Shown here one piece after another: positions 2,855-4,372 of a stretch of 33,200 bases of DNA (position 1 is the stretch's first letter; each line of letters opens with the position of its first letter). The DNA is from a virus. The translations under genes were made by a program, and so were the position numbers. The notes beneath the pieces were generated by a model. The model had not been told where the DNA came from and made no database searches. It saw only the letters and a program-made list of their open reading frames with translations. The stretch is from the IMG/VR virus record IMGVR_UViG_3300031659_000045, positions 1 to 33,200 of that record. The stretch is one strand, 5' to 3'.

Positions 2855-2875
2855 TAAGAAATTTACATAAACTTC

Positions 2876-2904
2876 TTGACATTATCTCACATGTATGGTA
2901 TCAT
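2876..2904 (+). promoter_or_regulatory. Sigma70 promoter of the tmRNA/tRNA operon
   Basis: TTGACA at 2876-2881, a 17-base spacer, and TATCAT at 2899-2904. Transcription would begin near 2911, about 45 bases before the tmRNA acceptor domain. Confidence 0.85.
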
Positions 2905-2909
2905 GGTAG

Positions 2910-2917
2910 TATAAATA
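2910..2917 (+). promoter_or_regulatory. T4-type late promoter in front of the RNA operon
   Basis: TATAAATA occurs just downstream of the sigma70 -10 box. If used, transcription would start near 2923. The RNA operon may therefore be transcribed both early from sigma70 and late from the gp33-dependent promoter. Confidence 0.6.
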
Positions 2918-3230
2918 GAAATGTAATCGTTGATACGATTTAAAGTTTGGGCAGGACGAGGGTGCGAATCCCTCCATCTCCACCAAAAGCACATCTGTAA
3001 GGCGTAGTGAAGTTTGCAGACAGATGACTCAGAAGACTCCGTGAGGTGTGCTTTTGATGGGGATGAATAGAATCGACTGACAGATAGAGATGAGTGGAGA
3101 TTACCGTGGTGACTTACGTTAGACAGTCAAAAGAAACTAAAAGCAAACGATAACTTTGCCACATCTGATTTCGCTCTAGCAGCGTAAACGCAGGGAGTTG
3201 TCCACTTACTTAGCAACAGAAAAGTGGAAC
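2918..3230 (+). ncRNA. ssrA: Circularly permuted (two-piece) tmRNA
   Basis: The acceptor piece comes first: T arm 2958-2962/2970-2974 with a 7-base loop, acceptor strand CATCTCC 2975-2981, discriminator A and encoded CCA 2983-2985, preceded by GGAC as in tmRNAs. A 73-base intervening segment follows. The second piece begins GGGGATG at 3059-3065, which pairs with CATCTCC over 7 bp including one G-U, and continues with the tmRNA-like AATCGACTG. The tag frame runs 3143-3187 and encodes ANDNFATSDFALAA then TAA; ANDNFA starts and hydrophobic AxAA ends are typical of alphaproteobacterial tags. After the tag, GTTGT/GCAAC and CCACTT/AAGTGG interleave as an H-type pseudoknot. The RNA would rescue stalled ribosomes with SmpB from the host. 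The outer 5' and 3' ends are estimates. Confidence 0.92.
2985..3055 (+). other. Intervening segment between the tmRNA pieces, hairpin-forming
   Basis: AAAAGCACATCT at 2985-2996 pairs with AGGTGTGCTTTT at 3044-3055 over 12 bp (one G-U), bringing the CCA end and the GGGG start of the second piece together for processing. Inside it, CATCTGT 2992-2998 and ACAGATG 3020-3026 can form a competing helix. In two-piece tmRNAs this segment is removed during maturation. Confidence 0.8.
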
Positions 3231-3233
3231 ATA

Positions 3234-3307
3234 GCGGGTATCGTATAATGGTATTACAAGAGGTTTCCAACCTTGAGACAGAAGTTCGATTCTTCTTACC
3301 CGCTCCA
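3234..3307 (+). tRNA. tRNA-Gly (anticodon UCC)
   Basis: Acceptor stem GCGGGTA/TACCCGC (7 bp), D arm with the AATGGTA loop, anticodon loop TTTCCAA giving UCC, which reads GGA, T loop TTCGATT, discriminator T and an encoded CCA. The 27-43 pair of the anticodon stem is an A-G mismatch. The gene follows the tmRNA almost directly and is transcribed with it. Confidence 0.93.
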
Positions 3308-3558: not shown

Positions 3559-3611
3559 ATTTTAAAAACTGGTGATTCACTACCATAAGTGTGAACTATA
3601 TAAGAGAAGCA

Positions 3612-3710
3612 AACGTGCTCACGTTCAATAGTGATGCTCTCTACTGTGGTTTAATCCACATCTTCGGATCGTAGAGGTTGTATACTGGCATGCAAGTTGA
3701 ACACTTTTTT
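3612..3710 (+). ncRNA. Candidate structured RNA with UUCG tetraloop and possible alternative folds
   Basis: A 9-bp helix 3636-3644/3671-3679 encloses two side-by-side hairpins, TGTGG/CCACA (3645-3660) and a C(UUCG)G tetraloop hairpin (about 3660-3669), forming a three-way junction. An outer helix GTTCAA 3623-3628/TTGAAC 3697-3702 is followed by T3705-3710, like an intrinsic terminator. The 3' strand of a separate hairpin AACGT/ACGTT (3612-3625) overlaps that outer helix, so the two are mutually exclusive, as in an attenuator or riboswitch. No ligand class could be recognised. Confidence 0.5.
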
Positions 3711-3711
3711 A

Positions 3712-3774
3712 GGTAAGGGATAGATGGACGAACCGTTTGGCAAAACCTTCTTCTACAAACATTTATCCTTTGCC
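3712..3774 (+). ncRNA. Candidate hairpin RNA in the tRNA cluster
   Basis: GGTAAGGGATA at 3712-3722 pairs with TATCCTTTGCC at 3764-3774 over 11 bp with two G-U pairs. The 41-base interior can form a small GTTT/AAAC hairpin. TTTTT follows at 3778-3782, so it may be a weak terminator or a separate RNA. No protein-coding frame is seen here. Confidence 0.4.
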
Positions 3775-3795
3775 GACTTTTTATCTCGCATGACC

Positions 3796-3857
3796 ACTTG
3801 AGTATGATCTCTCTGGTAGATGTTTGGGGAAACCCACTAAACCTGTCATACTCAAGT
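3796..3857 (+). ncRNA. Candidate hairpin RNA with GNRA tetraloop
   Basis: ACTTGAGTATGA at 3796-3807 is perfectly complementary to TCATACTCAAGT at 3846-3857. Nested inside is TGGG-GAAA-CCCA (3825-3836), a GNRA tetraloop hairpin that can be lengthened by GTT/AAC pairing (3822-3824 with 3840-3842). This two-level structure lies just upstream of the tRNA-like element and is not explained by any tRNA. Confidence 0.5.
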
Positions 3858-3888
3858 CGCTTTGAAAGGGCGGTGCGAGGCCTAGTTT

Positions 3889-3959
3889 GCCCGATTAGTT
3901 AAATGGTATAACGATTGAATAATAATCTTTAGTTGATGGCTCGATACCATCATTGGGCA
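3889..3959 (+). tRNA. tRNA-like element, anticodon arm degenerate
   Basis: The acceptor stem GCCCGAT/ATTGGGC, the D arm GTTA-AATGGTA-TAAC and the T arm GATGG-CTCGATA-CCATC are well formed, and the length matches the neighbouring tRNA-Gly. The anticodon arm is abnormal: the best stem, GATT/AATC, encloses GAATAAT, which lacks the invariant U33, and the frame that places U33 correctly needs two T-T mismatches and would give AAU. The T loop starts CTCG, not TTCG, and CCT replaces CCA. It is probably a decaying tRNA or a tRNA mimic. No amino acid can be assigned. Confidence 0.55.
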
Positions 3960-3965
3960 CCTAAT

Positions 3966-4070: not shown

Positions 4071-4112
4071 GGTGAGGGGTTTCGGGAATTCCCGCCCCTT
4101 GCCACCTTTTTT
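4071..4112 (+). terminator. Rho-independent terminator of the RNA operon
   Basis: GGTG-AGGGG at 4071-4079 pairs with CCCCT and CACC up to 4106, with a nested CGGG-AATT-CCCG, followed by T4107-4112. A strong GC stem plus U tract closes the tmRNA/tRNA transcript before gene 33. Confidence 0.85.
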
Positions 4113-4135: not shown

Positions 4136-4372
4136 ATGAACCTAGAAGAACTAGTTGTGATGACACCGAAGAAATTCGCACTTAAAATAGAACGCATAGT
4201 AAATACGGCAGATGATATATCGTATATGGATGCTATCTTAGATTATTGCGAAAAGAACAACATGGAACCCGATACCATTGGGCCTCTTATCTCAAAACCA
4301 TTAAAAGAAAAAATAGAAGCTGATGCAAGGAAATTAAACTTCTTGCCACGAGTAGCTACGCTACCAATTTAA
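4136..4372 (+). CDS. gp33: Late transcription co-activator (T4 gp33 homologue)
   Basis: A 78-aa protein with an AGGAG ribosome site. The central segment ISYMDAILDYCEKNNMEPD followed by a LISKPLKEKIEADARKLNFL helix matches the pattern of T4 gp33 and its cyanophage counterparts. In T4, gp33 bridges the gp45 sliding clamp and RNA polymerase carrying gp55, and so activates late promoters of the TATAAATA type. Several such sites lie in this window, which fits the assignment. It is shorter than T4 gp33 (112 aa), as usual in marine relatives. It is the first gene after the RNA-operon terminator. Confidence 0.82.
   Translation: MNLEELVVMTPKKFALKIERIVNTADDISYMDAILDYCEKNNMEPDTIGPLISKPLKEKIEADARKLNFLPRVATLPI

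Follow-up and report, generated by a model that had tools for sequence, protein, structure and literature searches.

A circularly permuted tmRNA gene preceded by putative early- and late-type promoter signals in a virus related to the OM43 myophage Melnitz

The window analysed here is the whole 33,200-nucleotide stretch of the 33.2-kb virus record IMGVR_UViG_3300031659_000045, with the OM43 myophage Melnitz as a relative and the SAR11 phage HTVC008M as a more distant one. The tmRNA gene, its promoter elements, tRNA-Gly, the terminator-like hairpin and both neighbouring genes lie on the + strand. Positions 2922-3233 were identified as a circularly permuted (two-piece) tmRNA gene, on which two Rfam models and ARAGORN agreed. 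Rfam model RF04321 (tmRNA_permuted) matched 2922-3187 with 103.3 bits against a cut-off of 47 (E 2.5e-19). The Infernal alpha_tmRNA model (RF01849) and ARAGORN had been proposed as checks with the original prediction, which was made from the letters alone; the former gave 73 bits at 2872-3231 against a cut-off of 50, and the latter called a permuted tmRNA with the tag ANDNFATSDFALAA and a stop codon at 3143-3187. These results and the relatedness to Melnitz agree with the phage-encoded permuted tmRNA that had been claimed. The upstream neighbour is a PD-(D/E)XK nuclease gene of the phage exonuclease family (2141-2854; PF12705, phrog_298) and the downstream neighbour encodes a gp33-like late-transcription coactivator (4136-4372; PF16805, phrog_254).

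Encoded first is the acceptor/T-arm half, from which a spacer separates the coding half. The acceptor piece (2922-2985) comprises a helix strand to the coding piece, the T arm (2958-2974), the 3' strand of the acceptor stem (2975-2981) and an encoded ACCA (2982-2985). The coding piece (3059-3233) begins with the 5' strand of the acceptor stem (3059-3065), carries the tag frame ANDNFATSDFALAA and stop (3143-3187) in the same frame as in relatives, and has a 3' hairpin (3201-3228; TCCACTT/AAGTGGA). The acceptor stem pairs GGGGATG with CATCTCC at 7/7 positions, the third pair being G-U; its coordinates, its length of 7 bp, the encoded CCA and the 14-codon tag frame with its stop had all been predicted exactly. 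The 73-nt spacer (2986-3058), which processing of the precursor should remove, folded at -21.3 kcal/mol (z -2.2), and its length ranged from 32 to 186 nt across relatives. The outer ends are approximate. The 5' end was put near 2922, and the coding piece was taken, from the start of tRNA-Gly, to end near 3233, where RNase P cleavage would set its 3' end.

The tmRNA heads a unit made of RNA genes only, consisting of the tmRNA, tRNA-Gly(TCC) abutting the coding piece (3234-3307; ARAGORN; RF00005, 59.6 bits), tRNA-Asn, a tRNA-Ile call, tRNA-Trp and a terminator-like hairpin followed by six T (4071-4112; -22 kcal/mol, z -2.8). No + strand ORF of at least 60 amino acids was listed between the coding piece and this hairpin. 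Within the unit, 329 nt without a listed + strand gene (3560-3888) contain a long perfect inverted repeat and folded at -95.8 kcal/mol (z -3.2; 0/100 shuffles as good), with no Rfam match. The adjoining tRNA call (3889-3961) has the anticodon AAT (Ile), which is unusual for bacteria, and an irregular-looking anticodon loop, and the reading may be wrong. A glutamine riboswitch was found in 21 of the 49 tmRNA-bearing records searched, on the 3' side of the tmRNA in the loci compared by position (L011, L021, L034 and L035); the window gave none at the cut-off or at a lax threshold. The two elements were found together only rarely in the Melnitz paper (PMC9004378).

Related viral loci were fetched by a nuclease-gene search, which yielded 80. 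The same gene was present at the same locus in most of them by ARAGORN and cmscan, the latter recovering tmRNAs in loci that ARAGORN had missed, some truncated by a contig end. A pattern-matched set of 62 loci was then compared, made up of 61 phage copies and one, L116, from a bacterial metagenome bin. Three versions of the acceptor stem occurred in this set, all fully paired (GGGGGCG/CGCCTCC, GGGGATG/CATCTCC and GGGGGTG/CACCTCC), and the third pair was G-U in 62/62; the G3-U70 alanine pair was thus present in the window and in every locus. RNAalifold gave a weak fold on the un-permuted concatenation, so pairs were counted directly. Among 49 distinct phage sequences the first three T-stem pairs were kept in 49/49, although they occurred as 2-4 pair types, and many compensated versions of the stem were seen in the 3' hairpin. 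The two pieces are joined by a helix that is GTAATC/GATTAC in the window; L016, L019 and L027, the tmRNA-bearing relatives nearest to it, have GCAATC/GATTGC there. This comparison was made on one alignment, because a separate automatic search for the helix picked spurious longer matches in some rows. The compensatory changes across the 49 distinct sequences and the kept acceptor pairing are strong evidence that the tmRNA structure is selected and maintained. Chance or a false positive of ARAGORN was ruled out by this covariation and by the shared locus in most of the 80 relatives.

The tag starts ANDN and ends ALAA, as do tags of alphaproteobacterial cells, its hydrophobic degron end being followed by the stop. 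Three other phage contigs (L025, L026 and L027) carry the identical tag. Among relatives some 20 tags were distinguished, with lengths of 10, 13 or 14 codons; most of them start ANDN and end LAA, and these loci supply a set of phage tags for comparison with host tags. Tags of 14 codons also occur in sampled alphaproteobacterial cells (ANDNVASQDFALAA and ANDNVDMGKVALAA). One scan of genome contigs, for host tags of SAR11 and OM43, returned mostly Rhizobiales. An unusual length of the tag, as first suggested, was ruled out by the cell tags and by the range of 10-14 codons in relatives. The further suggestion, that it may redirect degradation, found no support in the cell-like ends or in the sharing of the tag by three contigs; judged by its sequence, this is an ordinary ClpXP-type tag with no mark of redirected degradation. 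The original prediction thus held for phage origin, permuted form, tag and precedents; it was rejected for tag length and found no support for redirected degradation.

Two-piece tmRNA in phage is a known class, of which the window copy is a well supported member. The precedents in OM43 and SAR11 myophages had been named correctly: the two-piece ssrA of Melnitz at the same locus is already published (PMC9004378), and permuted tmRNAs were found in the SAR11 phages Mosig (MT647606) and HTVC008M (NC_020484). The Melnitz gene (MZ577097) resembles that of the window in its permuted alpha-type form, its position between the PD-(D/E)XK nuclease and gp33, its 14-codon tag, and the TTGACA and TATAAATA upstream. 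It differs in the tag itself (ANDNYVPVDYALAA rather than ANDNFATSDFALAA) and in two small genes between nuclease and tmRNA. The downstream place that tRNA-Gly takes in the window is taken in Melnitz by a glutamine riboswitch. The -35 box of Melnitz is spaced 17 nt from the octamer, and the separate -10 box seen in the window is missing. In Mosig and HTVC008M, which are related myophages, the permuted tmRNA likewise precedes gp33, whereas the tags are shorter (GEDNFALAA and ANFNEYALAA, respectively) and TATAAATA is absent from the stretches read. The HTVC008M copy (L083, 2120-2461) is unannotated in its record.

The chromosomal two-piece tmRNA of Alphaproteobacteria (RF01849) shares architecture and tag style with the window. 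A permuted tmRNA was above the cut-off in 349 of the 385 genomes sampled; the group centred on L116 has small genomes and almost no permuted tmRNA. Cell copies lay across a branch (84/87) from phage copies in a weakly supported tree built from sequences other than the window group, HTVC008M and Mosig. A phage-style permuted tmRNA (L182, 1898-2315) with the tag ANDNFAPSGYALAA was seen on a contig of 41 kb that had been assigned to the Flavobacteria MAG Muricauda sp. TMED12; this is probably a phage contig put in the wrong bin. Eight permuted tmRNA matches were found in the single bin Rhodobacteraceae bacterium Water_Bin34, which is for that reason probably a mixed assembly.

Two promoter-like elements lie between the nuclease gene and the tmRNA. 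A putative sigma-70 promoter (2876-2904; TTGACA-N17-TATCAT, with TG ahead of the -10 box) agrees with the consensus at 11 of 12 positions, and its TTGACA/T box is kept in relatives. It is followed by the octamer TATAAATA (2910-2917), which we take to be a T4-type late promoter with a predicted dependence on gp55/gp33. In T4 late promoters the transcript starts about six bases past the octamer; the tmRNA transcript would accordingly begin at about 2923, and the RNA model starts at 2922. The octamer was present 33-37 nt upstream of the T-arm GGAC in 61/61 phage copies, the only locus of the 62 without it being L116; in HTVC008M, Mosig and L182 the stretches read at the tmRNA lacked it. Its eight positions were invariant in 46 unique sequence blocks while the adjoining bases varied. 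It occurred 10 times in the window against 3.0 expected (0/100 shuffles had as many) and 25 times in Melnitz against 12.1 expected under a first-order Markov model; by comparison of positions with gene tables, the Melnitz copies lie upstream of, among others, the genes for capsid, tail sheath, prohead and baseplate. The window has a gp33 gene, and the Melnitz annotation includes a late sigma factor. Most relatives have TTGACA or TTGACT 17 nt upstream of TATAAATA, so placed that the octamer overlaps the sigma-70 -10 box; a separate box (TATCAT or TATAAT) was seen in the window, L016, L019 and L027. The octamer resembles a -10 box and mostly lies 17 nt from TTGACA, and by itself is therefore no proof of late use. 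In all 61 phage copies, the on-switch of the tmRNA seems to unite signals of early and late promoters.

The reading that we prefer, with a probability of roughly 0.8, is a functional phage-borne two-piece tmRNA that is transcribed early and late, processed and charged by the host, and that tags stalled peptides and keeps ribosomes available. We infer its timing, processing, charging, proteolysis and benefit as follows. A precursor would be transcribed from the host sigma-70 promoter early and from the T4-type octamer, served by phage gp55/gp33, late. Once host RNase P and tRNA 3' processing had removed the spacer, an acceptor piece and a coding piece would remain, joined through the acceptor stem and a second, inter-piece helix. 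The RNA would be charged by host AlaRS through G3-U70 and delivered to stalled ribosomes by host SmpB, and stalled peptides would receive the tag (A)ANDNFATSDFALAA and pass to ClpXP-type proteolysis. No SmpB turned up in the window or in the seven related records searched, which included full-length Melnitz, HTVC008M and Mosig, so that SmpB, AlaRS, RNase P and protease would all be needed from the host. The most likely use would be to keep ribosomes available through infection, the late phase included, while mRNAs break. More tentatively, and at somewhat under even odds, ribosome rescue may be part of the late regulon, the composite promoter keeping the tmRNA made during virion protein synthesis, which would allow unfinished virion proteins to be tagged and ribosomes to be recycled up to lysis.

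Early action was inferred for the Melnitz tmRNA from its place after an early promoter (PMC9004378), and expression confined to the early phase, with host peptides tagged, amino acids recycled and viral proteins spared, would fit the near-consensus sigma-70 promoter and its conserved TTGACA/T. We consider this published proposal rather unlikely for the present group, since the octamer, in which the final T of the -10 consensus is missing, is unvaried in the 46 unique blocks, is kept beside a separate -10 box in four loci including the window, and stands ahead of capsid and tail genes as well; it argues for late transcription too and weakens the case for early only. The conserved combination of signals predicts transcription through the whole infection, and makes the role of the phage tmRNA testable. 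Were the RNA instead a decoy that binds host SmpB and damps host trans-translation with little tagging of its own, in the way discussed for a phage RNA with only the tRNA-like domain (PMC4131195), the missing phage SmpB would be accounted for; the coding half, resume site and tag frame kept in relatives, and the conserved tag ends, are none of them needed by a decoy, which makes this improbable. Still less credible is a passenger, a host gene that was captured recently and does nothing for the phage: some close relatives do have the tmRNA absent or deleted, yet compensatory changes over diverged copies and the invariant octamer show selection within phages. In the open-access literature searched, the composite promoter, the deletion scar described below and the frequent riboswitch were unreported, and earlier reports may exist elsewhere.

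The six loci nearest by nuclease identity (L003-L008) gave no tmRNA match. What remains in L008 is TTGACA, a TATAAT box, TATAAATA and 31 nt that match the 3' hairpin (0/1000 shuffles as good), after which comes a tRNA-Gly-like gene; L007 has the same remnants with one octamer change, and L003 keeps the promoter region only. The simplest reading of L007 and L008 is that the tmRNA body was lost and the promoter and 3' hairpin were kept. As these closest relatives lost it, the tmRNA would not be essential to the phage group. In L003-L008 a small gene with a signal-peptide-like start (MRLITKCRLTLLIMVLGSILLVLPAKSYA...) overlaps the end of the nuclease gene, just before the position of the missing tmRNA.
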